64,000 nt of DNA from Ruminococcus sp. (lineage in GTDB: Bacteria > Bacillota > Clostridia > Oscillospirales > Ruminococcaceae), in the NCBI GenBank assembly GCA_021199305.1, contig JAJQIH010000011.1, positions 1-64,000 of the forward strand. The letters run 5' to 3'. The position numbers and the translations under genes are program-made. This document shows positions 2,503-18,149 of this stretch, in pieces (position 1 is the stretch's first letter; every line of letters starts with the position of its first letter). Under the pieces are notes generated by a model. That model searched no databases. It worked only from the letters and a program-made list of their open reading frames with translations, and was not told the DNA's origin.

Positions 2503-2516
2503 ATAGCTTCCTCCAA

Positions 2517-3857
2517 TTAAATATTGTATTCAAGCTTGCGCTCGTCAATAATTCTCTTTGATTTGTGCTCTGAGCGTGTATCTAATCCACCGTCTGGGTG
2601 AACAACTACATTGTATGGCTTAACTCCAATTCGAGCCTTAAGTGCTGCAGAAACTTCTGCTGCGACCTCTTCATCAGTCTTTGGGTTATCTGCATTCTTC
2701 TCTATTTCTACTGAATACTTGCAAGTGAAATCCTTTTCAAACACTCTTATCAAATATTCGCCCGTAATTCCCGAAAGCTCACGAACTACCGCTTCAATAT
2801 CGCTAGGAAATACATTTACTGCCGACACGATAAACATATCGTCCTTTCTGCCGTTAATGTGTATTCTTCCATGAGTTCTGCCGCATGAACATGGAGTATT
2901 GTCTATCCAACCTATATCTCCTGTACGGAAACGAATTAACGGACGAGCGTGCTTACGGAGTGTAGTAAATACAAGCTCGCCAACCTCACCAGGCTTTAGC
3001 ACTTCTCCTGTGTGCAGATCAACCGTTTCAACAAGAATATGGTTTTCAGCTATATGCAAGCCGTCTTTTGCCTCACACATTGCAGCACAAGCGCCAAAAA
3101 TATCTGATAATCCATAGAAATCATACACTTCCGCTCCCCACAAATCCTCAATTGCTTTTCTGGTTGCGTCGATAGATCCGCCTAATTCTCCTGCAACTAT
3201 AATCTTCTTAATGTTCAGGTCTTTTTTCGGGTCTATACCCTGCTTTAACGCTTTTTCGCCTAGCTGCCATGCATAAGATGGACTTGTCCATATAATAGTC
3301 GGCTGGTATGTCTTTAAAATAAACAGAAGTCTTTCACTGGGAAGAGTTCCGCCCCAAATACATAAAGCACCCAGATTTTGTGCGCCTATAACGTCTGGTC
3401 CTCCAACATAAAGTGAGAAATTAAGCGCATGAACATATCTGTCGTTCGGACGCATACCGATTTGCCAGAACCAACGACTTTCTGTATCCTGAAATTCATC
3501 AAAATCCTTTTTTGTAAACGGGCTCATTGTTGGAACGCCTGTTGAGCCAGATGAGGTTGAAATAAAAACTACCTCCTCCTCTGGTACAGCTGCCAGCTCA
3601 CCTAAAAACGAACCTACTCCCTGAGTGTCTCGCTGTGTTTTCTTATCGATAAACGGAAATTTTTGAATATCAGCAAGCGTTTTTATATCGGAAGGCTTCA
3701 CTCCAGCCTCGTCAAAAGAACGCTTATAATACGGTGCATTGTCATATGCAAACTGTACTATTTCCTTTAAGTCCGCAAGCTGTCTTTTTTCCAGCTCCTC
3801 TCTTGGGAGAGTTTCCAACTCTTCATCCCAATACTTGTTATTTACATCTCTGCTCAT
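2517..3857 (-). CDS. PaaK-like (phenylacetate-CoA ligase family) acyl-CoA ligase
   Basis: A 446-residue AMP-forming ligase of the PaaK family: R-CO2H + ATP + CoA -> R-CO-CoA + AMP + PPi. Seen: the P-loop-like STSSGSTGVPT, the adenylate region YGLSDIFG, the RTGDIG motif with a Cys-rich CSCGRTHGR insert typical of PaaK, and a C-terminal lid with Lys near the end (EHKSKRIIDER). The length is normal for the family. It is immediately followed (in transcription) by the aminotransferase and preceded by porB. In rumen and gut anaerobes, PaaK-like ligases beside a 2-oxoacid oxidoreductase can supply acyl-CoA for reductive carboxylation. The acid used here is unknown. Confidence 0.9.
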   Translation of the reverse strand: MSRDVNNKYWDEELETLPREELEKRQLADLKEIVQFAYDNAPYYKRSFDEAGVKPSDIKTLADIQKFPFIDKKTQRDTQGVGSFLGELAAVPEEEVVFISTSSGSTGVPTMSPFTKKDFDEFQDTESRWFWQIGMRPNDRYVHALNFSLYVGGPDVIGAQNLGALCIWGGTLPSERLLFILKTYQPTIIWTSPSYAWQLGEKALKQGIDPKKDLNIKKIIVAGELGGSIDATRKAIEDLWGAEVYDFYGLSDIFGACAAMCEAKDGLHIAENHILVETVDLHTGEVLKPGEVGELVFTTLRKHARPLIRFRTGDIGWIDNTPCSCGRTHGRIHINGRKDDMFIVSAVNVFPSDIEAVVRELSGITGEYLIRVFEKDFTCKYSVEIEKNADNPKTDEEVAAEVSAALKARIGVKPYNVVVHPDGGLDTRSEHKSKRIIDERKLEYNI

Positions 3858-3872
3858 AATTGTTTCCTCCTG

Positions 3873-4769
3873 TTAGTTTACTACTTTAAAGTTTTTATGA
3901 ATAGCCTCCCATTTTGCATCACGGGAAGTTATAATCGTTTGTATATCTTCATCTGATAAGTGCTTGAATCTACCCTGCCTTTTCAGATAATCGGATACGC
4001 TTGTAAATTCTTTGGGCTGATGATTTAATGTGAACTGACCGTTTTCGTATTCAGCAAGATACCACAATCCGCAGTCAACTACTTCCTTTGCCACTTCAAC
4101 AGTTTCATCTGTGTTTATTCCCCAGCCTGTAGGGCAAGGTGCAATAACATGAATATATTTTGTCCCAAAAATTCTGGAAGCTTTTTCGACCTTGTTTATA
4201 AAGTCATTCATATATCCAATACTTGCTGTTGCCGCATAAGGAATGTCATGTGCGGCGACAATCTCAAACATATTCTTCTTTGGTCTTATGTTGCCATGTA
4301 TGTTCTTTCCTGCTGGCGTAGTTGTTGTTCTTGCGCCAAAAGGAGTAAGAGAGCTTTTTTGTATACCAGTATTCATATAGGCTTCATTGTCATAGCAGAT
4401 ATAAAGAATATTGTCATTTCTGTCGATTGCACCAGATAGTGCTTGAAGTCCTATATCGGCAGTTCCGCCATCTCCTGCAAAGCCGACTGCCTGAAAATCA
4501 GTTATCCCCTGTGCTCTTAGTCCTGCTTCTATGCCTGTAAGCATCGAAGCCGTACCTGCAAATGTTGAAATTATTGCATTGTTGCCAAAGCAAAGCTGTG
4601 GGAAGTTAAAGCCAACAGCAGACATACAGCCAGCCGGAAGAACGGCTATTGAACGCTCACCCAACACCTTTAATGCAATTCTGACAGCAAGACTTCCGCC
4701 ACAACCTGCACACGCCTTATGTCCATAGAAAAGCTCATCTTCATTGAGTGTTCTTGCATTTATGCTCAT
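3873..4769 (-). CDS. porB: 2-oxoacid:ferredoxin oxidoreductase, beta (TPP) subunit
   Basis: A 298-residue PorB/VorB-type subunit that binds thiamine pyrophosphate. Seen: GHKACAGCGG at the N-terminus (Cys residues that ligate a cluster in PORs), the TPP motif beginning GDGGTADIG and ending ...DNEAYMNTG, and the TPFGARTTTTPAGK segment typical of POR/VOR. Its start overlaps the stop of the alpha subunit by 4 bp. With the adjacent alpha, delta and gamma subunits it would form a complete four-subunit enzyme for reversible 2-oxoacid + CoA <-> acyl-CoA + CO2 + reduced ferredoxin. The symbol denotes the family only; the substrate need not be pyruvate. Confidence 0.9.
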   Translation of the reverse strand: MSINARTLNEDELFYGHKACAGCGGSLAVRIALKVLGERSIAVLPAGCMSAVGFNFPQLCFGNNAIISTFAGTASMLTGIEAGLRAQGITDFQAVGFAGDGGTADIGLQALSGAIDRNDNILYICYDNEAYMNTGIQKSSLTPFGARTTTTPAGKNIHGNIRPKKNMFEIVAAHDIPYAATASIGYMNDFINKVEKASRIFGTKYIHVIAPCPTGWGINTDETVEVAKEVVDCGLWYLAEYENGQFTLNHQPKEFTSVSDYLKRQGRFKHLSDEDIQTIITSRDAKWEAIHKNFKVVN

Positions 4770-5932
4770 TCCTCCCCGCCTCCGATTCCAATAAATTCAA
4801 TCTTGACTTCTTCTTTTTTCAATTCGTCAAATATATTTTCAATTTCAACAGCAGAAATATTTTTACCGCCCAGACCGCCAATATAATTTGAACACGGCAG
4901 CGTATTTCCTGACTTTTGAAGTGATGAATTTACATTAGTATACACTGTTCCCTCGTTTCCAAAGGAAATGTCCTTTTCTAAAACAGCTATTGCTCTGGCA
5001 TTTTTAACGGCAAGTGCTATTTCTTCATTTGGGAATGGACGAAGATATCGAATGCGAAGAAGTCCAACCTTCTCACCATTTTCTCTCAGCTTATCAACCG
5101 TTTCCTTTACAATTCCAGCAATGCTTCCAAGAGTAATAAGGATATAATCAGCATCTTCCGTTTGATAATTTTCGGTCAAGCCAGTATATTTTCTGCCAAA
5201 AATTTCGGCGAATTTTTGTTCCACCTGATGAATCACCTGTTTGGCATTCAACAATCCAATATGCTCCTTATACTTAAAAGCAATATTGTGTGCAGGTCCT
5301 GCTGAAAAACCCAGATTACGAGGGTTATCCAGGTCAAGCTTGTTCTCTGTCTTGAATTTTGGGAGAAAAGCATCAGCTTGCTCTTGAGTTGGAACATCCA
5401 CAACTTCATAGGTATGAGTCAATACGAAACCGTCAAGATTTGCCATATATGGAGTAGAAACCAAAGAGTTTTCAGCGATATGATAGCTCATAAGTGCTAA
5501 GTCAAGTGCCTCTTGAGCATCTACTGCATATGCTTGTATCCAACCACTGTCAAGAAGAGATATGGAGTCACGCTGATCTCCATATATATTCCAAGGTAAA
5601 GCAGTAGAGCGATTGGCATTCATCATAACGATTGGGAATCTACCACCTGATGCATAAGTCAAGCATTCAGCCATATATAAAAGTCCTTGTGAAGAGGTTG
5701 CGGTAAAAGCTCTGGCACCAACTGATGATGCACCCATAGCGCAAGAAAGTGCTGAGTGCTCTGACTCTACATGAATAAACTCCGCTTTCAAGCTGCCCTC
5801 CTCAACCATTTCTGACAGTCGTTCGACAACTATTGTCTGCGGTGTAATAGGATAAGCCGAAATAACTTGTGGTCTTGCGAGGCGAATGCCTTCAGCAAAG
5901 GCTTCGTTTCCAGATAAAAATTTTTGTGCCAT
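4766..5932 (-). CDS. porA: 2-oxoacid:ferredoxin oxidoreductase, alpha subunit
   Basis: A 388-residue PorA/VorA-type subunit. Seen: SAYPITPQT near residue 25, HVESEHSALS, TATSSQGLLYM and a C-terminal transketolase-like domain ending in a Gly-rich GIGGGEE tail. The order gamma-delta-alpha-beta, with 4-bp overlaps between genes, is that of the four-subunit POR/VOR class. The alpha/beta pair forms the active site and CoA-binding face. Its place beside a CoA ligase and an aminotransferase suggests a biosynthetic (reductive carboxylation) or degradative amino-acid role rather than central pyruvate metabolism. Confidence 0.9.
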   Translation of the reverse strand: MAQKFLSGNEAFAEGIRLARPQVISAYPITPQTIVVERLSEMVEEGSLKAEFIHVESEHSALSCAMGASSVGARAFTATSSQGLLYMAECLTYASGGRFPIVMMNANRSTALPWNIYGDQRDSISLLDSGWIQAYAVDAQEALDLALMSYHIAENSLVSTPYMANLDGFVLTHTYEVVDVPTQEQADAFLPKFKTENKLDLDNPRNLGFSAGPAHNIAFKYKEHIGLLNAKQVIHQVEQKFAEIFGRKYTGLTENYQTEDADYILITLGSIAGIVKETVDKLRENGEKVGLLRIRYLRPFPNEEIALAVKNARAIAVLEKDISFGNEGTVYTNVNSSLQKSGNTLPCSNYIGGLGGKNISAVEIENIFDELKKEEVKIEFIGIGGGEE

Positions 5933-6222
5933 TACTTTTCAGCCTCCATTCTTATTGCTCCACGCTTACAGGCTCTTTTGCATATTCCGCAGCCCTTGCA
6001 GAAGTCATAATCTATGGACACCTTATTCCCGCTTTTGTAAATCACGCCATCAGGACAATAGAGGTAGCATTGCAAACAACCAATACATTTTTCACTATCA
6101 ATAACCGGACGGAAATTACGCCAACCCGCATTTTTGGTTACCAAGTAGCCTGCTTCAAACGCTGTTGTATCAGGGATTTCTGACAGTTTTTCAGGTATCT
6201 TTTCTCTTAAATATGGCTTCAT
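5932..6222 (-). CDS. porD: 2-oxoacid:ferredoxin oxidoreductase, delta (2[4Fe-4S]) subunit
   Basis: A 96-residue ferredoxin-like subunit with two [4Fe-4S] motifs: CIGCLQCYLYCP (about residue 42) and CKGCGICKRACKRG (about residue 71). It wires electrons between the TPP site and external ferredoxin. It overlaps both the gamma-subunit stop and the alpha-subunit start, which indicates translational coupling. Confidence 0.92.
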   Translation of the reverse strand: MKPYLREKIPEKLSEIPDTTAFEAGYLVTKNAGWRNFRPVIDSEKCIGCLQCYLYCPDGVIYKSGNKVSIDYDFCKGCGICKRACKRGAIRMEAEK

Positions 6223-6755
6223 CTATCGTTCTCCCTTCTGATAACTTCGGCGGCGGCTCTTACAGCTAAAATATTTTTTCTTTGCAGCTTCTCAGACATA
6301 TTTTGATAAATTGCTTTCTCAATATTTTCCAGGGAAACATCAGTGCTTACAGCCGCAAAAGCACCGAGCATTATAGTATTTGTAATCGGAAGCTTTAAAA
6401 TTTCTATTGCCAATTCGTCTGCATCAATCGAAATTACTCTCTCACTTAATACTGACTGCTTAGTATTTAAGAGAATTTTTCCATTTGGTTTCAGCTCTTC
6501 AAATGACTTCTCCGAGAACAACGTATCATCAAGGAAAATACTGAAATCGGCCTTTTCGATTTCACTTCGATCGCCGATAGGCTTTTCGTCCAATTTCGTG
6601 AAAGCTCTAATTGGTGCCCCTCGTCTTTCCGGGCCGAAAGACGGAAACGCAAGTGCGTAGCTTTCATTGTCTTTCAAAGCAAATGCGGCACCGAGCAATC
6701 GTGCTGCCGTAAATGCTCCCTGCCCTCCTCTGCCGTGCCATAAAATTTCAGTCAT
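6219..6755 (-). CDS. porG: 2-oxoacid:ferredoxin oxidoreductase, gamma subunit
   Basis: A 178-residue PorG/VorG-type subunit with the diagnostic WHGRGGQGAFTAARLLG start and FPSFGPERRGAP. I chose the ATG at 6755 because AAGGAG lies just upstream; a longer frame to 6779 has no such support. It overlaps the permease stop region upstream by about 10 bp in the transcript, so importer and oxidoreductase are one transcription unit. The last residues overlap the delta-subunit start. Confidence 0.9.
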   Translation of the reverse strand: MTEILWHGRGGQGAFTAARLLGAAFALKDNESYALAFPSFGPERRGAPIRAFTKLDEKPIGDRSEIEKADFSIFLDDTLFSEKSFEELKPNGKILLNTKQSVLSERVISIDADELAIEILKLPITNTIMLGAFAAVSTDVSLENIEKAIYQNMSEKLQRKNILAVRAAAEVIRRENDR

Positions 6756-6766
6756 AACATCTCTCC

Positions 6767-7687
6767 TTATCGCTTCCAACGGAGCAAATATTTTTGAAGT
6801 CTATTAAACAAAAACGATATTGCGACAACTACAATGCCAATTACAATGATTCCGACAATAGTTCGTGTGTAATCGCCAAAATCCGAATAGTTCTTAACGT
6901 AGTATCCCATTCCATCCTGAGCTCCTATCATCTCTGCTGATGTCAACAATATAAACGAAACTGTCAATCCTTGATTACATCCAATAAATATCTGTGGCAA
7001 CGAAGCTGGAAGAATCACGGAAAAAAGCATCGTAAAACGATTTGTATTTAACACCTTAGCTGAGTCAATCAGCTTTCCCTCAACATTCATCACACCGCTC
7101 ATTGTGCTTGCGAAAATCGGCCAGAATGATGCGAGAAAAATTACCATTACAGAAACGCTTCTGAAAGTTGGCAACAAAGCAATTCCATAAGGAATATACA
7201 CTATAGGCGGGATAGCACTTAAAAACTTTGATATATAAGTTGCTGCACTGCCTAGTCTGACACTCCATCCAATAAAAAGTCCTAACGGAATAGCCACAAC
7301 AGTAGCAATCAAATAGCCTTCAACAATAATTCCCAACGAGCTGCAAATGTTTACAATTATCTTGTCGATGTCATCTAAAAACTGCCAAATTACCCTTCCC
7401 GGCGGCGGGAACAGCGATTCCTTGAGCAGATTAAACTTTGCCGTTGCAAGCGTCCAAGCAATTAAAATAACGAACAAAAATCCGATAATATCTAGAAATA
7501 AATTCAGTCCCTGCGGCTTTTTAAGAAATGCAGAAACGACCAGAACTAAGACCTCTAACGCAATTGATACACATATAACATACGATGTTTTGGTTTCGGT
7601 TGTAATCTTGTTTGGTAAAAACTGTACAGCAATTAAAATCAAAAAAAGTAGATTAGTAACTCTCAAATATCTTTTCTTCAATGTCAT
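6767..7687 (-). CDS. SsuC/TauC-like ABC transporter permease
   Basis: A 306-residue inner-membrane permease of the nitrate/sulfonate/taurine (BPD_transp_1) family with about six to seven hydrophobic segments. Two or three are N-terminal of the core domain, making it longer than a typical 250-residue SsuC. The EAA-like loop region (DSAKVLNTNRFTMLFSVILPASLPQ) for ATPase contact is present. It starts in a TAATG overlap with the ATPase stop and overlaps the start region of porG. It is part of the importer that heads the oxidoreductase/ligase/aminotransferase operon. Confidence 0.9.
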   Translation of the reverse strand: MTLKKRYLRVTNLLFLILIAVQFLPNKITTETKTSYVICVSIALEVLVLVVSAFLKKPQGLNLFLDIIGFLFVILIAWTLATAKFNLLKESLFPPPGRVIWQFLDDIDKIIVNICSSLGIIVEGYLIATVVAIPLGLFIGWSVRLGSAATYISKFLSAIPPIVYIPYGIALLPTFRSVSVMVIFLASFWPIFASTMSGVMNVEGKLIDSAKVLNTNRFTMLFSVILPASLPQIFIGCNQGLTVSFILLTSAEMIGAQDGMGYYVKNYSDFGDYTRTIVGIIVIGIVVVAISFLFNRLQKYLLRWKR

Positions 7688-8526
7688 TACAGCACCACCT
7701 CATCTCCGCCAATTTTGCTCGCAATATCGCTGTAGAAAAGCGATTGCAGCTCGTTTCTGAATTTTCCATATTGCACAGTTTGTACAAGCTCAGCACGATT
7801 CCTTGGGCGATCAAATGGAACGGTAATTTCTTTATACACTCGTCCTGGACTGGTCGTCATCATAACTATGCGATCGGAAAGTAAAATAGCTTCATCAATA
7901 TCGTGAGTTACAAAAATTACTGTTTTCTTTTCCTGCGTTCCGTCACCCTCCCAAAGCTTTAACAAAAGCTCCTGGAGAATTGTTCGGTTTTTCGTATCAA
8001 TTGCGCCAAAAGGCTCGTCCATAAGCAGAATATCAGTATCCATTGCAAGTGCTCTTGCAATAGCAACTCGCTGCTGCATTCCTCCAGAAAGCTGAGAGGG
8101 ATACTTGTTTTTAAATTCCTCAAGCCCCACCCTGTCAAGAAAATCATCAGCAAATTTCAATCTTTCAGCTTTCGGTAGGCCTTTTTTGCTCTGCTTTACT
8201 CCAAATGCAACATTCTTTCGTGCTGTCATCCAAGGAAACAACGAGTAGTGTTGAAATACAACTCCCCTGTCAGTTCCTGTTCCATGTATTTCATTTCCAT
8301 CTATTAAAACAGCACCTGATGTCGGAGTGTTTATCCCTTCAAGTACGCTGAGGAGAGTGCTTTTACCACATCCGCTGGATCCGATTACGCTTACAAACTC
8401 GCCTGCTTCTACAGAAAACGATACATTGTCAAGTGCAGTAAAGCAATTATTCTTTTCACGATAATCTACTGATAAATTTTGTATTTCAATTTTGCTCAAA
8501 TCTGACTCACCTCTTAATTTTGCCAT
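7687..8526 (-). CDS. SsuB/TauB-like ABC transporter ATPase
   Basis: A 279-residue nucleotide-binding subunit: Walker A GSSGCGKST, Q-loop FQHYSLFPW, signature LSGGMQQRVAIARA, Walker B ILLMDEPFGAID and H-loop VTHD. The ATG at 8526 is used here. A TTG at 8499 with a closer GAGGTGAG site would give MSKIEIQN..., a more typical SsuB start, so the first nine residues are uncertain. It would power uptake of the ligand bound by the lipoprotein encoded just upstream. Confidence 0.92.
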   Translation of the reverse strand: MAKLRGESDLSKIEIQNLSVDYREKNNCFTALDNVSFSVEAGEFVSVIGSSGCGKSTLLSVLEGINTPTSGAVLIDGNEIHGTGTDRGVVFQHYSLFPWMTARKNVAFGVKQSKKGLPKAERLKFADDFLDRVGLEEFKNKYPSQLSGGMQQRVAIARALAMDTDILLMDEPFGAIDTKNRTILQELLLKLWEGDGTQEKKTVIFVTHDIDEAILLSDRIVMMTTSPGRVYKEITVPFDRPRNRAELVQTVQYGKFRNELQSLFYSDIASKIGGDEVVL

Positions 8527-8537
8527 TTCATCTTTTC

Positions 8538-8587
8538 AACCCTAAAGGCAGAACGAAGAGTAGCTTCGCTCTGCCTTCGATAGGGTT
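8538..8587 (-). promoter_or_regulatory. Intercistronic hairpin between binding protein and ATPase genes
   Basis: AACCCTA and AGGCAGA arms pair with TCTGCCT and TAGGGTT around an inner ACGAAG/CTTCG helix, giving a long stem in the gap between the lipoprotein stop and the ATPase start. No T-run follows on the minus strand, so it is more likely an mRNA-stabilising or partial-termination element than a full terminator. This layout usually raises binding-protein level over the membrane components. Confidence 0.6.
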
Positions 8588-9679
8588 TTATTCATACTGG
8601 TCGAAATGCTCCTGCAATTCAGCATAAATAGAATCGTCGGGGTTTTCTTCGATTAAACTTTCCAGCGCTTGCTCGTAAACAGAAGTGTTATAAAGAGAAT
8701 CTATATCATAATCATCTGTATAACCAAGCTCAACTATGCTATCCTTGAGTTCAACAGTCGCCTGCTTGTCAGGGTCAGGGTTTGATGTTCCATAACCGCC
8801 ATAAACCTCTGTTCTGATGTAATCCTCTTCAATATCTATGTACTCCTTGATATCACTTATCGTACTGTCTTCATTTTCCTGCGAAAACTTGTAAGCCTTA
8901 ATCAAAGCACGCTCAAAAGCATTGTAAGAATTTGGATACTCCTCAAGTGCTTCGGTTGTGGCTACCTGACGGCAGCAAGGCTGATTTTCAAGAAGCTCTT
9001 CCTCGCTGCAGCGATAAACTATTTCATAGCCCTGTGACTCAGCAAGTGAAGCATAAGGAGAATATACTGACGCTGCGTCTATAGTATCGTTCTGAAGTGC
9101 TGAATATGCATCTTTCTGGCTATCAAAATAAACAATGTTTACCTGATCATCGCCCTCGCCTATCTCAATGCCGGCATCCGCTAGCAGAAGCTGAAGCTCC
9201 GCATCCTGAACACTGTTTTTAACAGATGCTACATTTTTACCTTTCAATATGCTTATGTCGACATCGTCAACACCCTCTGTGTATTCAGACTTGATAACAT
9301 ATCCATGGCCGTTGCTCATTGCTCCACCGAATATTGTTAAATCGTGTCCTGAGCTTTGGAAAGTTATTATAGGTACTGAACCAATAAAAGCTACATCCAA
9401 TTTTTCTGACTCAAGTCCAGAAGCAAGCTCTGATGCACTGGAAAACTGTGTCAACGTAACGTCTAATCCTTCTTCCTCAAAGTAACCTTCCTCTTGCGCT
9501 ACAAATGCAAGAAGATGTGCTGTTGAGTTCAAATATCCAATATTAAATTCTGTTTTTTCAAGTTCTATTGCTTGCTCATCTGTATTCGTTGTAACGCTGT
9601 CGTCTTCCGAATCTGAGCAAGCCGTTAAAGACAACAGCAATGACAAAGCAATAATGCCTGCTGTAATTGATTTTTTCAT
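8588..9679 (-). CDS. SsuA/NMT1-like substrate-binding lipoprotein
   Basis: A 363-residue binding protein with a lipoprotein signal (SLLLSLTAC, lipid Cys about residue 21) and a Ser/Asp-rich linker. The fold is NMT1/SsuA-like (NIGYLNSTAHLLAFVAQEEGYF, FIGSVPIITF). It is about 40 residues longer than a usual SsuA, with an acidic C-terminal extension. It is the first gene of the importer-oxidoreductase-ligase-aminotransferase operon and has its own promoter. The family binds sulfonates, taurine, nitrate, thiamine precursors and aromatic acids, so the ligand cannot be named. The operon context suggests a carboxylate that can be made into a CoA ester. Confidence 0.9.
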   Translation of the reverse strand: MKKSITAGIIALSLLLSLTACSDSEDDSVTTNTDEQAIELEKTEFNIGYLNSTAHLLAFVAQEEGYFEEEGLDVTLTQFSSASELASGLESEKLDVAFIGSVPIITFQSSGHDLTIFGGAMSNGHGYVIKSEYTEGVDDVDISILKGKNVASVKNSVQDAELQLLLADAGIEIGEGDDQVNIVYFDSQKDAYSALQNDTIDAASVYSPYASLAESQGYEIVYRCSEEELLENQPCCRQVATTEALEEYPNSYNAFERALIKAYKFSQENEDSTISDIKEYIDIEEDYIRTEVYGGYGTSNPDPDKQATVELKDSIVELGYTDDYDIDSLYNTSVYEQALESLIEENPDDSIYAELQEHFDQYE

Positions 9680-9813
9680 GAGTATATTTCCTTTCCTATT
9701 GAAGTTTAATGATTTAATATTTAACGAGTTGTACTCTTACACATTCGCTCCCAACATCGTTTGTGTCTCACCATAAATATTGCATTGTACACTGTTACCA
9801 GCCCCTCTCATAA

Positions 9814-9838
9814 TACAGTAAACCTGTATGTTTACTAT
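9814..9838. promoter_or_regulatory. Dyad operator at the start of the importer operon transcript
   Basis: AGTAAAC-N6-GTTTACT (9817-9836) is a perfect 7-bp dyad located just downstream of the -10, where a repressor or LysR-type regulator could act. It overlaps TACAGTA (9814-9820), a half-site also found in the leader of the cysteine operon at 15530. No regulator can be assigned from sequence; the nearby LysR gene is the obvious candidate. Confidence 0.5.
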
Positions 9839-9845
9839 GTTATGA

Positions 9846-9875
9846 ATTATAACACCAGCTTTAGCATTTGTCCAA
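9846..9875 (-). promoter_or_regulatory. Promoter of the importer-oxidoreductase operon
   Basis: On the minus strand: TTGGAC (-35, 9870-9875), 18-bp spacer, TATAAT (-10, 9846-9851). It lies about 165 bp upstream of the lipoprotein start, leaving a long leader. Confidence 0.7.
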
Positions 9876-9967: not shown

Positions 9968-11164
9968 CTACAAATTTACAGACAGCAACGCAAGATTTAA
10001 ATCAGAAATAATATCATCGACATCCTCAAGCCCAACACTGAAACGTATAAAGCCGTTTCTGAATTTTTCGGGATAAAGATTTATACGCTCATCGTAGCTT
10101 GGCTGAGGAAATATCAAGCTTTCATCGTGTCCTAGAGAAACAGCAAAGGTTATAACCTTTAGCTTTGCGCACATTCGTTCAATAGTTTTATCATCCGCAT
10201 TTAATCCAAATGAAATCACTCCGCCGTATCCATTTTTCATTTGCTTCTTTGCAATCTCATATCCTGGATTGCTTTTTAGTCCCGGATAAGAAACAAATGT
10301 GATGTTTTCACGCTGCTCAAGCCATTCAGCTATTTTTTGTGCCGATTCATTTATTCTTTGCATTCGCAGAGGAAAGGTCACCGAACCACGGAAAATCTGC
10401 CACGCATTAAATGGGCTGATTACTGAGCCTACATTCACCTGTGCCTCATATCTGATGCGATCCATTGTTTTCAGATCATTAGAAATGATAGCTCCTCCCT
10501 GTGCATCTCCGTGACCATTTATGAATTTTGTAAGAGCATCAACAACAAAATCTGCACCCAGTTCAAGCGGCTGTTGATTAAGCGGCGAAGCAAATGTATT
10601 GTCAACAGAAAGCAGCGCACCGTTTTCGTGCGCAATTTTTGCAATTGCTTCTATGTCGGTAACACCGACTGTCGGGTTGTCAGGCGTTTCTATATGTACA
10701 AGCTTTGTACCAGGTGTAATTGCTCTTTTTACCGCTTCAAGATCCGTCATATCAACTATTACTGTTTCAACATTGAATTTTTTGTTGAACAATTCATGAA
10801 ACATTCTATAAACCGCCATATAGCTTACGTTTGGGTACACAACTCTGTCGCCTGATTTTAAAAGTGTCCAAAACAATGCATGAAGTGCCGCAACGCCACT
10901 AGCCAAAACAATGGCGTCATCTGCGTTGTATAATCCGGCAATTTTTTCTTCTAGCCAATGCTGGTTAGGATTTCCGTTTCTTGAATACATCAGCAAATCG
11001 GTCGATGAATAATTCACGGTTGACAAATCGTCTGGCAGCTTGTAGCTGTTTGCCATATGCAATGGACGGCGAACCGCTCCTGTGCCTTCGTCATAATCCG
11101 TTCCCGTATGAACAGCTTGAGTTGCTATACCGTATTCACTAAATTTGTTATCTTTCTTTGCCAT
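9968..11164 (-). CDS. Cys/Met-metabolism PLP-dependent lyase/transferase
   Basis: A 398-residue member of the cystathionine gamma-synthase/lyase and methionine gamma-lyase family. Seen: YSRNGNPNQ, the VDNTFASPLNQQP motif and PLP-lysine in DALTKFINGHGD, where the common HSATKY has become DALTKF. This divergence from the second family member at 13144 suggests a different substrate, for example methionine gamma-lyase or an O-acyl-homoserine sulfhydrylase type; I cannot decide. It lies 18 bp after the LysR gene in the same orientation, so it is co-transcribed with that regulator. Confidence 0.85.
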   Translation of the reverse strand: MAKKDNKFSEYGIATQAVHTGTDYDEGTGAVRRPLHMANSYKLPDDLSTVNYSSTDLLMYSRNGNPNQHWLEEKIAGLYNADDAIVLASGVAALHALFWTLLKSGDRVVYPNVSYMAVYRMFHELFNKKFNVETVIVDMTDLEAVKRAITPGTKLVHIETPDNPTVGVTDIEAIAKIAHENGALLSVDNTFASPLNQQPLELGADFVVDALTKFINGHGDAQGGAIISNDLKTMDRIRYEAQVNVGSVISPFNAWQIFRGSVTFPLRMQRINESAQKIAEWLEQRENITFVSYPGLKSNPGYEIAKKQMKNGYGGVISFGLNADDKTIERMCAKLKVITFAVSLGHDESLIFPQPSYDERINLYPEKFRNGFIRFSVGLEDVDDIISDLNLALLSVNL

Positions 11165-11182: not shown

Positions 11183-12097
11183 TTATTGATTGAATAAATA
11201 TTTTTTTAGTTCCTCAATATATAGCCTACCAACTTCACTTAAAATATTATTCTTTTTTGTGATATATCCAATATTCATAATTTCAGAGCTTGCAGTATCC
11301 TCAAACGGTACTGCCACATAATCCGATCCATTTAATTCCTCACAAATAATTCCAGAGCATAGCGTATAACCGTTAAGTCCTACCATTAAATTAAGCATAG
11401 TAGCACGATCACTTGCCTTTATTGTTCTTGGATATTCCTTTTCGCTTAAAATTTCTTCCGCCAGATAAGCAGATCCTTTAATGCCTTGTTCAAAAGAAAG
11501 ACAAGGGTAGTTTTTGAGCTCTTCTAAAGTAATAATATCATTTTTAGCAAGCGGATGGCCCTTCCACAGGTACACATAAGCATTGCATTCAACAAGGCTA
11601 TGGAATGCAAGTGCAAATTCGTCTAATAATTTTCCTACAACCTGTTTGTTGAAATCGCTTATGAAAATAATGCCTATTTCACTTCTCGAAATGCCTACAT
11701 CCTCAATTACTTCATAGGTTTTGGTTTCCCTTATTGCGAACTCATATTGTGCGATGTCAAAGCATTTAACTGTTTCGACAAAAGCCTTAACTGCAAAAGA
11801 GTAATGCTGAGTGGAAACACCAAATTTAATCTTTATATTCTCTTTTGATGAATACTTTTGTTCTAACAGCTCATACTGTTGGTAAATTTGCCGAGCATGA
11901 GCTAAGAACTCCTCTCCATCGTTTGTGACTTCAACTCCCTTTCCAGTACGATGAAAAATTGAAATGCCGATGCTTTGTTCCAGCTCTTTGATTGCTTTTG
12001 TCAAAGTCGGCTGCGATACAAACAGCTTCTCTGATGCTTTGTTCATCGACTTAGTTTCTGAAATTGTAATTGCATAATGAAGTTGCTGTAATGTCAT
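11183..12097 (-). CDS. LysR-family transcriptional regulator
   Basis: A 304-residue protein with an N-terminal winged helix-turn-helix (MTLQQLHYAITI...KASEKLFVSQPTLTKAI) and a C-terminal effector domain of type 2 periplasmic-binding fold. It sits between the reverse-transsulfuration-like operon and the Cys/Met lyase it is co-transcribed with, so it probably senses a sulfur metabolite such as O-acetylserine. The two neighbouring operons carry dyads in their leaders that could be its sites. The ligand is not predictable from sequence. Confidence 0.9.
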   Translation of the reverse strand: MTLQQLHYAITISETKSMNKASEKLFVSQPTLTKAIKELEQSIGISIFHRTGKGVEVTNDGEEFLAHARQIYQQYELLEQKYSSKENIKIKFGVSTQHYSFAVKAFVETVKCFDIAQYEFAIRETKTYEVIEDVGISRSEIGIIFISDFNKQVVGKLLDEFALAFHSLVECNAYVYLWKGHPLAKNDIITLEELKNYPCLSFEQGIKGSAYLAEEILSEKEYPRTIKASDRATMLNLMVGLNGYTLCSGIICEELNGSDYVAVPFEDTASSEIMNIGYITKKNNILSEVGRLYIEELKKYLFNQ

Positions 12098-12234: not shown

Positions 12235-13143
12235 TCACTCATATATATGCTTACTGAAATATCTATCTCCTCTGTCCGGCAGAATTATGACAATGTTGCC
12301 CCTTGCACCACTTGATATCAGCTTCTTTGCCGCTGATAACACTGCACCAGAAGAAGAACCTGCAAAAATACCTTCTTTCCTTGCGAGCAATCTTGCTCCA
12401 TTAACAGCGTCATTATCATCTATTTTTATTACACTATTCACCAGTGACATATCCATTGTATCAGCTACAAAATCGTTTCCAATGCCTTCAATGTTGTAAT
12501 CTCCATGCTCTCCACCACCCATTGTTGAACCAACAGGGTCGGCCAGGACCCCTTGAATTTTTGGATTCTTCTCTTTTAAATATCTAAGTACGCCCGTATA
12601 TGTTCCTCCGCTTCCTGCACCAGCTACAACATAGTCAATCTCGCCGTTTAAATCCTCGTATATTTCAGGTCCTGTTGTTTCATAGTGTGCAAGTGGATTT
12701 GACTGATTTCTGAATTGTTGTAGGGCTACCGAATCTGGAGTTTTTTTGATAAGTTCATTTGCTTTATTTTCAGCTTCAAGCATTCCACCCTCACGAGGAG
12801 TATTTATTATCTCAGCGCCAAGCGCTCGCAGCAGCGTTTGCTTTTCCTCAGAAAATTTTGTCGGAACAACAAATATAATTTTATATCCTTTATTGAGTGC
12901 GGCAAACGCTATACCAAGTCCAGTATTACCAGCAGTAGCCTCAATTATAGTTCCGCCCGGCTTTAAAACGCCTCTCCTTTCTGCATCTTCTATCATATAC
13001 TTTCCTGTGCGATCCTTGACACTTCCCGATGGATTGTAAAGCTCAAGCTTTGCAAATAATCGTACTTCCTTCGGAAGATCCAGATTGGTAAGTTGCACAA
13101 GTGGTGTTTTGCCTATAAGTTCCTGCATGGATTTATAATACAT
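12235..13143 (-). CDS. Cysteine synthase / cystathionine beta-synthase-type enzyme
   Basis: A 302-residue fold-type II PLP enzyme. Seen: PLVQLTNL, GSVKDRTGKYM with the PLP lysine, the phosphate-binding EATAGNTGLG, and GSGGTYTGVL. The EATAGNTG variant resembles the MccA (YrhA) group, which makes cystathionine from homocysteine and O-acetylserine. It begins one base from the end of the cystathionine-lyase gene, giving the same pair as mccA-mccB of Bacillus, though in reversed order. It could equally be an O-acetylserine sulfhydrylase. It is the last gene of the attenuated operon. Confidence 0.88.
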   Translation of the reverse strand: MYYKSMQELIGKTPLVQLTNLDLPKEVRLFAKLELYNPSGSVKDRTGKYMIEDAERRGVLKPGGTIIEATAGNTGLGIAFAALNKGYKIIFVVPTKFSEEKQTLLRALGAEIINTPREGGMLEAENKANELIKKTPDSVALQQFRNQSNPLAHYETTGPEIYEDLNGEIDYVVAGAGSGGTYTGVLRYLKEKNPKIQGVLADPVGSTMGGGEHGDYNIEGIGNDFVADTMDMSLVNSVIKIDDNDAVNGARLLARKEGIFAGSSSGAVLSAAKKLISSGARGNIVIILPDRGDRYFSKHIYE

Positions 13144-14304
13144 TTACATACCCTCGCTTTCAGCTATAGCGTTATCGATATCTGCTATCAAATCATCTGA
13201 GTTTTCAATTCCTACCGACAATCTGATTAGTCCATCTGTAATTCCTACCTTTTGTCTGATTTCGTATGGAATTGAAGCGTGGGTCATACTGGCAGGATGG
13301 CAGACAAGTGATTCAACACCGCCAAGACTTTCTGCGAGTGCAACCAGCCGAAGATTTTTGAAAAATTTCTTTATATCGTAGTTTTCGTACAATTCAAATG
13401 AAATCATCGCACCGCCGTTTTTTGCCTGACGCTTGTTAATTTCATATCCTTGCGCATCAGGAAGACCCGGATAGTAAACCTTTTTAACTCCCTTATGGTT
13501 TACTAGATAATTCGCAAGCTTCTCTGCATTTTCAACGTGGCGATCCAAGCGAACACCCAGTGTTTTAATACCTCGAATAAGAAGGAAGGAATCGAAGGGT
13601 CCCAGAATTCCTCCTGTTGAATTTTGAATAAACGCTAAGCGTTCTGCAAGCTTCGTATCGTTTACGACAACAAGACCTGCAACAAGATCGCTGTGACCGC
13701 CAAGATATTTTGTTGCACTATGAATTACTATATCTGCTCCCAATTCAATCGGACGCTGAAGATACGGAGTCATAAATGTGTTATCAACAATGGCGAGAAT
13801 GCCGTGCTTTTTTGTAAGCGCAGCAACCGCCGCAATATCTGTTATTGTAAGCAATGGATTTGCTGGACTTTCAATCAGAATTGCCTTCACTTCCGGAGTG
13901 ATTTTCTGCTCCAATGCATTGATATTCGTCGTATCTTCGATAGAATAACCAATGCCAAAATTATTAAACACCTTGTCTAGCACTCTGAATGTTCCGCCGT
14001 ATACATTGCTGGAAATTAGTATTTTATCTCCCGACTTAAACAAGCTAAGGACTGCTGTTATTGCTGCCATTCCAGAACCAAACGCAAAACCTGCTGTTCC
14101 ACCTTCCAACTCAGCAATAAGCGATTCAAGCGCAGCTCTTGTCGGATTACCTGTACGAGAATACTCCCATTTTGGATTTTCACCGAGTCCTGTCTGCTGA
14201 TATGTTGAAGTTTGATATATTGGAACGTTAACAGACCCTGTTTGCTTATCTGTTGTATTTCCGCCGTGAATAAGTGCCGATTCAATTTTTTCGTAGTTTG
14301 CCAT
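13144..14304 (-). CDS. Cystathionine gamma-lyase/synthase family enzyme
   Basis: A 386-residue PLP enzyme. Seen: YSRTGNPTRAALE, the VDNTFMTPYLQRP motif, the PLP lysine in HSATKYLGGHSD and the SLGGVESL C-terminal motif of the gamma-lyase/gamma-synthase family. The ATG at 14304 has GGAGG at 6-bp spacing; an upstream in-frame TTG lies in that Shine-Dalgarno sequence and is not a start. Flanked by a methyltransferase gene and a cysteine-synthase-type gene, it fits cystathionine -> cysteine (MccB role). The synthase direction cannot be excluded from sequence. Confidence 0.88.
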   Translation of the reverse strand: MANYEKIESALIHGGNTTDKQTGSVNVPIYQTSTYQQTGLGENPKWEYSRTGNPTRAALESLIAELEGGTAGFAFGSGMAAITAVLSLFKSGDKILISSNVYGGTFRVLDKVFNNFGIGYSIEDTTNINALEQKITPEVKAILIESPANPLLTITDIAAVAALTKKHGILAIVDNTFMTPYLQRPIELGADIVIHSATKYLGGHSDLVAGLVVVNDTKLAERLAFIQNSTGGILGPFDSFLLIRGIKTLGVRLDRHVENAEKLANYLVNHKGVKKVYYPGLPDAQGYEINKRQAKNGGAMISFELYENYDIKKFFKNLRLVALAESLGGVESLVCHPASMTHASIPYEIRQKVGITDGLIRLSVGIENSDDLIADIDNAIAESEGM

Positions 14305-14345
14305 TTTTATTTCCTCCAATTGTAAAATTTAAATATATAAAAAGA

Positions 14346-15248
14346 CTATTGTCTTTTCTCTGCTAAAATGAAATGTATATTTTCAAAAGCTGTGAGTTTA
14401 TCGGTTCGATTGACAAAAAATAGCCTTTGAATATCTTTTGGCATTTCGTGAGTTCGGATTATGAATCCAAACTCCGAAAGAGCTTGACGAATTTCTTCAA
14501 CGGAAAAACCATGCTGCATCGGTTCCCCTAGCTTTGCGGTAATCTGCGTCAATTGATACACTCTGTCTGAACTTCTTCTGAAAGTTGTTTCATCAGGAAA
14601 GTCAAACACCAATCTGCTTCCGCCTGTTGAAATGCGACTTATCTTTGCTATTGTCTGCTTAAAAATTGGCACCGTCAAGTAATATGTAACACCAAGTATT
14701 GCAAAGAAAGTAGGAATGCTATCGTCAAAACCAGCATCTTTCAAAGCTGTTACCATATCGTCAGTTGAAAAGTCAACGGGGATATACTTTACGTTTTTAG
14801 GAATATTCCATTCCAGCTTATCTATTTGATCAAGCTTGTATCTTTGAGTATCAGGATGATCAATCTCATATATCTGAATGCTTTCATTATCATTGCGAAA
14901 AGCAAAAGAATCCATTCCCGCTCCACAAATAACGTATTGACATTTGCTATTAAGTCTGGAAAAGTTTAACAGTTCCTGCTCAGCAAAAGCTCCCCTGGAC
15001 AACGGAATCGGCGCTATAAATCTATTTATAACAGGATAAACCAAACTGCCATTAAAAGTACGCCTATTGTCAAATGCATCTGTATCAAAATTATTTTCTA
15101 CAAGCTGTCCTATCTCGTCATATTCCTCTTTACCCATAAGATCATAAGCAAGATAGTCATCAAAAATTTTCTCTTTAACAAAGTTTGAATGATACGCTCG
15201 TGCAAACGAGCAAAGCTTAGCAGTTATACTTTCCTGTGTTTCTACCAT
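14346..15248 (-). CDS. SAM-dependent methyltransferase, leucine carboxyl methyltransferase/Tcmp-like
   Basis: A 300-residue class I methyltransferase. Seen: SFARAYHSN near the N-terminus, FDDYLAYDLMG, the SAM-binding VICGAGMDSFAFR and the acidic EIDHPDTQ that binds the ribose of SAM. It is the first structural gene after the cysteine attenuator, with GAGGTG 8 bp before the ATG. In Bacillus the mccAB operon also begins with a methyltransferase gene (yrrT), although that protein is of another subfamily. The role here, perhaps consuming SAM to feed homocysteine formation or a thiol methylation, is inference. Confidence 0.82.
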   Translation of the reverse strand: MVETQESITAKLCSFARAYHSNFVKEKIFDDYLAYDLMGKEEYDEIGQLVENNFDTDAFDNRRTFNGSLVYPVINRFIAPIPLSRGAFAEQELLNFSRLNSKCQYVICGAGMDSFAFRNDNESIQIYEIDHPDTQRYKLDQIDKLEWNIPKNVKYIPVDFSTDDMVTALKDAGFDDSIPTFFAILGVTYYLTVPIFKQTIAKISRISTGGSRLVFDFPDETTFRRSSDRVYQLTQITAKLGEPMQHGFSVEEIRQALSEFGFIIRTHEMPKDIQRLFFVNRTDKLTAFENIHFILAEKRQ

Positions 15249-15276
15249 AAATATTCACCTCATTTTGTAAACGCAA

Positions 15277-15339
15277 AGACTCCGCCTGATCTCATTTCTT
15301 TCAACTAAGAAAGAAGCTTTTAGAAATCAGGCGGAGTCT
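15277..15339 (-). terminator. Attenuator terminator hairpin of the cysteine operon leader
   Basis: A perfect 14-bp stem: AGACTCCGCCTGAT (transcript 5' arm, genomic 15326-15339) pairs with ATCAGGCGGAGTCT (15277-15290), followed by TTGCGTTT. A 35-nt loop holds a smaller inner helix (TTTCTT/AAGAAA). It lies 18 nt downstream of the leader-peptide stop and 28 bp before the methyltransferase start. The CCGCCTG of the 5' arm can alternatively pair with CAGGCGG inside the leader peptide gene. Confidence 0.8.
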
Positions 15340-15357
15340 GGACACAAATATTTTAGA

Positions 15358-15498
15358 TTATTTCAACACAAATTGCCGCCTGTGCAAACAACAGCAAAGA
15401 CAGCACGAATTATTTGATGCAACGATAACACTAAAGCGATTTGAACTTGCTTTAGCGTAATTTTCTTGAACTAATATAGTAAAGTCTAGTATTCTCAT
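15358..15498 (-). CDS. Cysteine-rich leader peptide (46 aa) controlling attenuation
   Basis: This 46-codon frame is too short for most gene finders. ATG at 15498 is preceded by GAGGAT 7 bp upstream, and TAA lies at 15358-15360. Codons 32-37 read TGC TGT CTT TGC TGT TGT (CCLCCC, 15388-15405). Immediately after them, within codons 39-41, is CAGGCGG (15376-15382), which is complementary to CCGCCTG in the 5' arm of the downstream terminator. This matches amino-acid attenuation: stalling at Cys codons would leave CAGGCGG free to form an antiterminator, while fast translation would cover it and allow termination. The downstream genes are cysteine-forming. The sequence elements are seen directly; the mechanism is inferred. 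Confidence 0.8.
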   Translation of the reverse strand: MRILDFTILVQENYAKASSNRFSVIVASNNSCCLCCCLHRRQFVLK

Positions 15499-15529
15499 AA
15501 TGCATCCTCGTTTTGTTTATTTGGCACTA

Positions 15530-15560: not shown

Positions 15561-15581
15561 CTTATAGGCTTTATGTGTATT

Positions 15582-15610
15582 ATAATAGCACTATTTTTCA
15601 CTGCTGTCAA
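15582..15610 (-). promoter_or_regulatory. Promoter of the cysteine leader and operon
   Basis: On the minus strand: TTGACA (15605-15610), 17-bp spacer, TATTAT (15582-15587). It lies about 85 bp upstream of the leader-peptide start and just beyond the terminator at 15635. Confidence 0.8.
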
Positions 15611-16446: not shown

Positions 16447-16600
16447 CTCCCACCACTTAAACACTAACGTGTTTTGAAGTGGGGGCTTCTCGCTCAATAA
16501 TCCCAACGGACTAAGTATCAACGAGCTATCCCCGTTCGCCCAACGGTTCTATATTTTAGGTTATGCTAACACAATTCGCATACCCTCGTTTCTGATATTT
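16447..16600 (-). ncRNA. Candidate omega RNA (TnpB guide RNA) at the IS right end
   Basis: The 3' part of tnpB and the right-end region are highly structured and end at the hairpin CCACTTCAAAACAC...GTGTTTAAGTGG. In IS605 elements the RNA reading through this end carries a guide taken from flanking DNA, which here would begin near 16447 and run toward lower coordinates into the zinc-ribbon gene leader. The 5' limit is arbitrary. Confidence 0.5.
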
Positions 16601-17621
16601 ATTGCTGCATTTACATCTCTGTTGTGATGAGTGCCGCAGCTTGGACAAGTCCACTGCCTTACGGACAAATCCTTTGTTTCATTGTTTTTATATCCGCACT
16701 CACTGCACGATTGAGAGCTTGCAAAATATGGATCTACTTTTACCAATTGTTTGCCTTGCTCTTCAAGCTTGTACTGCAAAAATGTTGTGAATACACCCCA
16801 ACTGTTATCTGATACAGACTTGCCAAAGTTATACAATTGCGACATAGCTTTCATATCTAGGCTTTCTATACAAATGCAATCATAGGTATTGACTATCTGT
16901 CTAGATTGTTTGTGCAAAAAATCCCTGCGTTGATTTGAAACCTTTTCGTAGAGTTTCGCAACTTTTATGCGCTGCTTATTACGATTGTTAGAGCCTTTTT
17001 GCATTTTAGACAATTTGCGTTGTTCACGTTTCAATTGCTTTTCTGCTTTGCGGTAATATCTCGGATATTTAGGTTCGTTCCCATCGCTGTCAACATACAA
17101 TTCGTGCATAGAAAAATCTAAACCAAGGAAAGCTTGAGGTTCTGTTTCTTGTACTTGGTTTTCGTACTCAAACAGAATACTCACAAAATACTTTCCGCTT
17201 GGGTTCTGACTTACTGTTACGGATTTCAGCTTATAGTTTTCGGGTATAGAGCGGTGCTGTTTCATTTTGACAAAACCAACTTTAGGAAGCTTTATACAAC
17301 CGTCTTGTACGGAAATATTTTCGTTTACACAATTTGTCGTATAGCTGCTTCTGTTTGCTTTTTTGCTTTTGAATTTCGGAAATCCTGTTTTCGGATTTTT
17401 GAAAAAGTTATTATACGCAGCTTGAAGATTGATTTGTGCATTTGCAAGAGCAAGACTGTCAACCTCTTTAAGCCACTCAAATTCTTTTTAGTTTCACGAT
17501 AATAATTGATTTTGTCAGAAAGCATACGGTTATATATAAACCGTACACAGCCAAAGGTTTTTGCAAACATCGTTTTTTGCTCATTATTTGGATATATTCT
17601 GAATTTATAGGCTTTATTCAA
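16561..17621 (-). pseudogene. tnpB: TnpB RNA-guided nuclease, frameshifted
   Basis: The N-terminal part (MNKAYKFRIYPNNEQK..., from 17621) and the rest lie in different frames. The shift occurs at a short A-run (T5 on the plus strand, 17485-17489). Adding one A restores T-K-K-E-F-E-W-L-K and one continuous protein of about 350 residues. The RuvC residues are intact: Asp in FLGLDFSMHEL, Glu in CIESLDM and Asp in HHNRDVNAA, as is the zinc finger CSEC...CPSC. It is either a recent single-base inactivation or, less likely, a translational frameshift. A 234-residue C-terminal fragment with all the catalytic residues stays open from 17265. Confidence 0.85.
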
Positions 17622-18019
17622 TGTTTTTCACCTTGGCTTTCAATATACTTTTTGATAACATCTATCGGTGCACCGCCTGTTGTCAGCAGACAAAAGCTTT
17701 GACTCCAAAAATGTTCTTTCCACAGCCTTTGTCTTATTTGCGGAAATTCTTTCTTCAACAAACGACTGCTCGCACTCTTATAAGCATTTATAAATTTGCT
17801 TAATTCACTTTTGGGATGTGCTTTGAAAAGAATATGAACATGGTCTATATCGTGATTCCATTCCTGTAAGGTTATATTATATTTTGGACTTATATACTCG
17901 AATATCTCTTTTGCCCTGTCTGAAATATCATTATCAAAAACCTTACGTCTGTATTTTTCAACCAAAACCAAGTGGTAATACATAAGAAATACTGAATGTG
18001 CATTATTATCTAATTTCAC
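17618..18019 (-). CDS. tnpA: TnpA, Y1 (HUH) transposase of IS200/IS605
   Basis: A 133-residue single-strand transposase. Seen: the HUH pair in DHVHILFKA and the catalytic Tyr in DVIKKYIESQG. GTG at 18019 (VKLDNNAHSV) gives the usual family start and has GGTGGTG about 8 bp upstream; an extension to 18037 is open but atypical. The length is normal and no lesion is seen, so transposition in trans may remain possible even though tnpB is frameshifted. It overlaps tnpB by 4 bp. Confidence 0.9.
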   Translation of the reverse strand: MKLDNNAHSVFLMYYHLVLVEKYRRKVFDNDISDRAKEIFEYISPKYNITLQEWNHDIDHVHILFKAHPKSELSKFINAYKSASSRLLKKEFPQIRQRLWKEHFWSQSFCLLTTGGAPIDVIKKYIESQGEKH

Positions 18020-18149
18020 AATAATTTCACCACCCATTCTATTTCGACTGAAATTATTGTATCATCAAATAACTATTGTGTCAAGTACTGAAAAAACTAC
18101 GGCAATTCATCCCCTACCTAAGAGGAAGGAGACTTCTTGCAGAATAAGG

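Follow-up and report, generated by a model that had tools for sequence, protein, structure and literature searches.

A short reading frame with clustered Cys codons, followed by a hairpin that ends just before a cysteine-forming operon, lies on the minus strand of a 64,000-nucleotide stretch of Ruminococcus sp. DNA (the window). It almost certainly belongs to a conserved cis-regulatory leader, and very probably this leader is a trp-type, ribosome-mediated and cysteine-specific transcription attenuator of the operon. The reading had been proposed from the sequence of the window alone. It is supported by the anatomy of the leader and its conservation, by codon-to-arm register and covariation, and by predicted folding, and from these we infer translation of the frame, ribosome stalling, termination at the hairpin and the cysteine signal.

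Anatomy of the leader in the window

All of the attenuator parts named in the sequence-only reading are present on the minus strand (Table 1), and as an anatomical observation this is certain. The 46-codon frame was located together with its promoter, its Shine-Dalgarno sequence and the codon run TGC TGT CTT TGC TGT TGT, in which five of six codons specify Cys. The claimed complementarity of CAGGCGG to the terminator 5′ arm was confirmed, the matching CCGCCTG being at 15328..15334 (minus strand). The hairpin spans 15277..15339 and its outer stem is a perfect 14 bp (−35.9 kcal/mol). A simple terminator scan did not report it; its loop is longer than the limit of that scan. The methyltransferase gene starts 28 nt past the end of the hairpin, and its GAGGTG lies 3′ of the hairpin, outside the stem.

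The predicted folding energy of the 327-nt leader RNA is 5 sd lower than that of dinucleotide shuffles. A scan of the whole window against Rfam at the gathering score matched no family (T-box RF00230 and the SAM riboswitch included), and the leader peptide had no match in NCBIfam or Pfam. As eight T-box matches occur elsewhere in the genome of the window, the leader is used alongside T-boxes and not for want of them.

Runs of Cys codons need care, since TGYTGYNNNTGYTGY is not rare in this genome: alone it gave 31 matches in 1.74 Mb, against 21 for the reversed control. Bare TGY strings were therefore rejected as evidence, and the codon string by itself is not proof. An equally Cys-dense ATG frame arose in 0 of 1,000 shuffles of the 320-nt upstream region of the window. 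At most of the other loci described below the Cys density was also beyond that of shuffles (0–7 of 1,000), with p of 0.03–0.08 for six sparse loci of three Cys each. It is the conservation in relatives, as read from their sequences, that rules out chance for the window element.

Table 1. Features of the leader and of the operon that follows it (window coordinates)
Feature	Position	Strand	Basis
Promoter TTGACA-17-TATTAT, TG-extended −10	15582..15610	−	11/12 consensus matches; sigma-70-like, strong
Shine-Dalgarno GAGG of leader frame	15506..15509	−	Sequence; 8–11 nt 5′ of ATG
Leader peptide frame, 46 codons/46 aa, MRILDFTILVQENYAKASSNRFSVIVASNNSCCLCCCLHRRQFVLK	15358..15498	−	ORF; one of 28 distinct loci with a Cys-rich leader
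Regulatory codons (Cys-Cys-Leu-Cys-Cys-Cys), codons 32–37	15388..15405	−	Sequence; shuffles
Antiterminator arm (region 2) CAGGCGG	15376..15382	−	Starts 5 nt past last Cys codon
Terminator 5′ arm (region 3) AGACTCCGCCTGAT, common to terminator and antiterminator	15326..15339	−	Folding, alignment
Terminator 3′ arm (region 4) ATCAGGCGGAGTCT	15277..15290	−	Folding; covariation in 4 pairs
Imperfect U-tract TTGCGTTTA after terminator	15268..15276	−	Sequence
SAM-dependent methyltransferase, LCM family (PF04072/TIGR00027)	14346..15248	−	Profile and structure search
Cystathionine gamma-lyase/homocysteine desulfhydrase type enzyme	13144..14319	−	Best NCBIfam profile NF005810, slightly below its cutoff; best match among solved structures 7d7o
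CBS/cysteine-synthase type PLP enzyme, catalytic domain only	12235..13143	−	Profile and structure search
LysR-type regulator; accompanies operon in many relatives	11183..12097	−	Profile search; flanks in relatives
Another PLP enzyme of Cys/Met metabolism, probably cotranscribed	9968..11164	−	Transcription unit by position only

The operon and its surroundings

The downstream enzymes appear to be of cysteine-forming types, and the operon is best read as one for reverse transsulfuration, with a predicted lyase and a predicted CBS-type synthase. These two form the reverse-transsulfuration pair, mccB and mccA, of Bacillus and Clostridium. Further downstream (window 1336-9679, minus strand), annotation by eye gave an ABC transporter, subunits resembling 2-oxoacid:ferredoxin oxidoreductase, a phenylacetate-CoA-ligase-like protein and an aminotransferase; together these genes resemble an amino-acid oxidation pathway beside sulfur genes.

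None of the other species searched in the genus, 14 in all, had the methyltransferase, and the closest relatives of the lyase in them were distant paralogues. Genus-wide vertical inheritance was rejected on these grounds, and the cassette was probably either gained horizontally or lost elsewhere. IS200/IS605-like transposase pieces, recognized by eye from translations as a TnpA-like frame and a TnpB-like frame split in two, lie about 1 kb upstream of the leader (window 16561-18037, minus strand), which is consistent with mobility of the region.

Conservation in relatives

Relatives were drawn from the family, from named rumen and gut MAGs, and from the order and class. Conservation of the Cys codons had been set beforehand as a check on the sequence-only reading, and it was borne out: the layout of a Cys-rich leader plus terminator was found at 28 distinct loci, counting the window and a locus, L148, described below. 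A short frame with clustered Cys codons preceded every methyltransferase of at least about 46% identity for which upstream DNA was examined. Examples of the clusters are NCCCLCCKNNTGG, RCLCCCCCSYTGGG, ICCCPCCCSKADG, MCCCCCCIDTGG, NCCCCPCCIDTGG, NNCCCIACCQKR and NNCFCCCILC. Methyltransferases at ≤39% identity (L053-L063) had no comparable Cys cluster and terminator, and no lyase gene in the flank that was fetched.

Beyond the Cys cluster, and the terminator close to the next gene, the leaders share little. The remainder of each peptide is largely unrelated from locus to locus, near-identical pairs excepted, and leader length (29–57 codons in a 15-locus set), Cys spacing and the C-terminus are all variable. 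Both Cys codons are used (51 TGT and 21 TGC over the 15 loci), a mixture to be expected if it is the amino acid that is conserved. The loci that were folded each have a stable hairpin that stops about 17–46 nt short of the next gene and is followed in most cases by a T-rich tail; the T-runs after the hairpin reach eight in L069 and seven in L178. The element directly follows a cysK-type gene in L065-L068, L070, L076, L078, L079 and others, and at loci of this kind it is apparently intra-operon. The window copy has its own promoter, without cysK directly upstream.

A covariance model built from nine copies was searched in 394 genomes of the order and gave four strong matches (76–101 bits; next best 36 bits). 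These were the window, G477 and G561, both of which are in the model, and a new locus at 80 bits (G609/L148). Weaker matches (≤36 bits) were treated as chance, the loci fetched for them having no Cys leader before an operon gene. At L148 the order is cysK, leader MNIQIRINLNTVNDAAEEASGFSGFLAVSDCCCCMIKHTGG, terminator, cystathionine gamma-lyase and CBS-type gene. Since the element there immediately precedes the lyase and no methyltransferase intervenes, regulation of the methyltransferase only was rejected, and the lyase/CBS pair looks like the constant target of the element. The methyltransferase, lyase and synthase genes had been named together as the target; the assignment to a cysteine-forming operon stands, now narrowed to the lyase/CBS pair as its likely constant part. 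A search with the same model of 398 genomes across the phylum found only the window at E 1e-8, so the motif is narrow at the level of sequence, though the layout is wider.

Covariation, register and the predicted switch

An antiterminator was found at 15 loci, which include the window and span several families and orders. In an alignment of nine sequences, 92% of cells in the terminator stem are paired and four of 11 pairs show double changes. The antiterminator core is paired in 100% of cells of this alignment yet is almost invariant, so its pairing by itself says little. Across nine distinct core sequences, divergent loci included, 94% of cells are paired between the antiterminator arm and the terminator 5′ arm, and four of eight pairs have compensatory double changes (as good in 0–1 of 500 shuffles), although these counts are inflated by the arms of L069, L177, L178 and L179, which were picked by complementarity. 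The covariation is lost on sliding by one to three columns. L069 is the clearest case: its leader and 3′ arm both carry GGACGG and its 5′ arm carries CCGTCC, all changed in concert. The leader-to-arm duplex beats dinucleotide shuffles at p < 0.05 in 12 of the 15 loci (combined p 7e-13 over the 15, which are not independent).

The register of codons and RNA arms is also kept: the distance from the first Cys codon to the antiterminator arm is 23–30 nt in 15 of 15 loci. We folded the RNA made so far by partition function with a 30-nt ribosome footprint blocked. In most loci the probability of the antiterminator is about 0.7–1.0 with the ribosome at most Cys codons of the cluster and ~0 just past it. 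Over the five Cys codons of the window it is 0.98, 0.99, 1.0, 0.84 and 0.03, and at the stop it is 0.0; the contrast between stall and stop is thus clean in the predicted folding of the window, with exceptions in other loci. In seven loci (L064, L066, L067, L069, L078, L079 and L148) the probability is mostly 0.7–1.0 on the Cys codons and ~0 after them and at the stop, and it is also low at most positions ahead of the cluster.

In the window, L065, L070, L176 and L179, folding also predicts the antiterminator when the ribosome is absent or has yet to reach the Cys codons, and what can be seen of the switch there is confined to its late part. Without a ribosome its probability in the window is 0.89. 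The window leader has no evident upstream 1:2 partner, and an untranslated leader would therefore be read through. Suppression by a ribosome at the stop is incomplete in L065, L070, L176 and L177, where the antiterminator partially recovers, and in L068 the antiterminator is weak at most Cys codons.

Proposed mechanism and alternatives

In the attenuator that we propose, RNA polymerase would start near 15575 and a ribosome would follow it into the leader frame. With Cys-tRNA(Cys) plentiful, the ribosome would pass the Cys codons towards the stop and cover CAGGCGG. Its partner CCGCCTG would be left for the distal CAGGCGG, so that the 14-bp terminator would form and transcription would end ahead of the operon. 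With Cys-tRNA(Cys) scarce, the ribosome would stall at codons 32–36 and leave CAGGCGG exposed. The exposed arm could bind CCGCCTG while the distal arm has yet to be transcribed, and the polymerase would go on into the methyltransferase, cystathionine gamma-lyase and CBS-type genes, whose products are expected to form cysteine from homocysteine.

The leader and its hairpins might instead act on translation, by masking the ribosome-binding site, as in the polycysteine leaders of mycobacteria, which are described as translation attenuators (PMC13236596). That the window hairpin ends near the methyltransferase start and has an imperfect U-tract would fit such an arrangement, but the hairpin stops short of the GAGGTG without including it, and the hairpins of most relatives have T-rich tails typical of intrinsic terminators, as in L069 and L178. 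We consider control of translation very unlikely.

Still less probable is that the frame encodes a functional Cys-rich small protein, with metal or redox binding, and has an ordinary terminator behind it by coincidence. The Cys residues of the cluster could bind metal; the peptide around them, however, is unconserved, its length, Cys spacing and C-terminus vary, and a small protein leaves both the RNA complementarity and the fixed codon-to-arm register unexplained. We give the lowest probability, close to none, to the reading in which the hairpin is a constitutive intergenic terminator or processing site and the Cys frame ahead of it is spurious. The position of the element between cysK and the next gene in many relatives would suit it, as would the occurrence of chance Cys-codon strings in these genomes, but Cys density is above that of shuffles in most loci, the register is conserved, the antiterminator covaries, and the window copy has its own promoter with no cysK directly upstream. 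Ribosome-mediated attenuation remains the reading that we prefer.

Divergent leaders and a second leader type

The Cys leader and hairpin are kept in loci of a Ruminococcus flavefaciens-like branch (L071-L075, L048, L051, L052) and in L047, L049, L050, L076 and L081. A common antiterminator was sought in this branch and in the other distant loci and was not found. The pairing of CAGGCGG with CCGCCTG, expected from the sequence-only reading to be conserved, is upheld, with compensatory changes, at the 15 loci above and was not found in most of the R. flavefaciens-like branch. Among the distant loci, a switch around the Cys codons is predicted only in L051 and L073. GCGATG(T/C) is nearly invariant near the end of the leader frame in L071, L072, L073, L048, L074, L075 and L051, and also occurs in Cys-containing leaders before a neighbouring ABC transporter; it might be an RNA element or a protein site, rather than only Arg-Cys codons.

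We also observed a second type of short Cys-containing leader (for example MTAITIEKENMCMCMMRSEDCCIMRCCVSRM and MSLKQTGTRMGMCLCTMRFSVSRIGRCCTSRM) at L064:9149-9245 (plus strand) and in L086, L089, L097, L099, L094 and L098. It lies upstream of a sulfonate/taurine-type ABC substrate-binding protein gene adjoining the cysteine operon, and in several cases a hairpin and T-run follow. Leaders of this type end in RCC..RM and have a conserved CGATGTTG stretch, features that are found in part in the R. flavefaciens-like leaders. A promoter-like TTGGACA..TATAAT and a frame, MVRHKRCWERMCKSTTR, precede the window copy of the transporter gene (8588..9679) at 9720-9860 (minus strand). The frame bears the CGATGTTG stretch with only two Cys codons and is possibly a decayed or variant leader.

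The second type suggests a Cys-leader regulon. Clostridia may have a whole regulon of this kind for sulfur assimilation, in which the second type would act through a different RNA or nascent-peptide mechanism, a proposal that we make tentatively and with some doubt. Palindromes such as TTCCGATAGGAA and ATTCCTATAGGAT were seen beside the promoters of sulfur operons, just downstream of the −10 in L071-L075 and L048 and at about 9077-9090 in L064, and could be a candidate operator for an Rrf2/CymR-like or LysR regulator.

Comparison with known systems

Cysteine genes of Firmicutes are known to be under the control of CymR, LysR regulators, Cys T-boxes and S-boxes. The element described here resembles instead the trp- and his-type attenuators of Proteobacteria. 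It has a Shine-Dalgarno-led frame with clustered, tandem regulatory codons, an intrinsic terminator before the first gene of a biosynthetic operon (with an imperfect U-tract in the window) and, as predicted at 15 loci, a mutually exclusive antiterminator overlapping the terminator 5′ arm, such that a stall would free region 2 and a ribosome at the stop would mask it. It differs from them in its amino acid, cysteine, in its clostridial host, in its longer leader (29–57 codons) and in its frequent position inside an operon. The mechanism is thus of a textbook kind; what is new, so far as we could tell, is to find it with cysteine, in this clade and at this target operon. The suggestion that cysteine attenuation of this sort is undescribed in Firmicutes agrees with our search of an open-access collection, which leaves out most subscription papers: no account of cysteine leaders in Clostridia turned up there.

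Polycysteine leaders are known in Actinobacteria, as the sequence-only reading had stated, where they precede cys operons (Seliverstov 2005, PMC1262725; Canestrari 2020, as cited in PMC13236596); Seliverstov and colleagues found no conserved terminator hairpins there. The mycobacterial frames are leaderless and are described as translation attenuators (Nature Microbiology, PMC13236596). These leaders are like ours in that cysteine genes are preceded by a short frame carrying runs of Cys codons, whereas the window frame is neither leaderless nor without a terminator: it is led by a Shine-Dalgarno sequence, has its promoter well upstream, and is followed by an intrinsic terminator and antiterminator. 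Tandem Cys codons and an intrinsic terminator are also shared with uORFC-8-2 of Rhodobacterales, found before cysS in Alphaproteobacteria only, for which ribosome-mediated attenuation was proposed (PMC8632094). That element, with two Cys codons, usually at positions 14-15, and a cysteinyl-tRNA synthetase gene as target, is set apart by its description, which gives another gene and layout. Histidine leader-peptide attenuators of Firmicutes (PMC2965389, PMC9413887) are alike in using leader-peptide control instead of T-boxes or a repressor, and differ in their His codons and his genes.

In metatranscriptomes, cysteine limitation of uncultured clostridia from gut and rumen would be readable as the amount of terminated leader RNA relative to the full-length form. 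The closest parallel in gene content is the ubiG-mccBA operon of Clostridium, an equivalent set of methyltransferase, lyase and CBS-type synthase, which is controlled by a Cys T-box with premature termination responding to the charging of tRNA(Cys) (PMC2940859). The T-box senses the tRNA directly, without a leader peptide; the window has no T-box, and its leader stands in the place of one. A conserved leader attenuator at a reverse-transsulfuration operon, in a genome that uses T-boxes, would mean that one sensor of tRNA charge has been swapped for another at equivalent genes.
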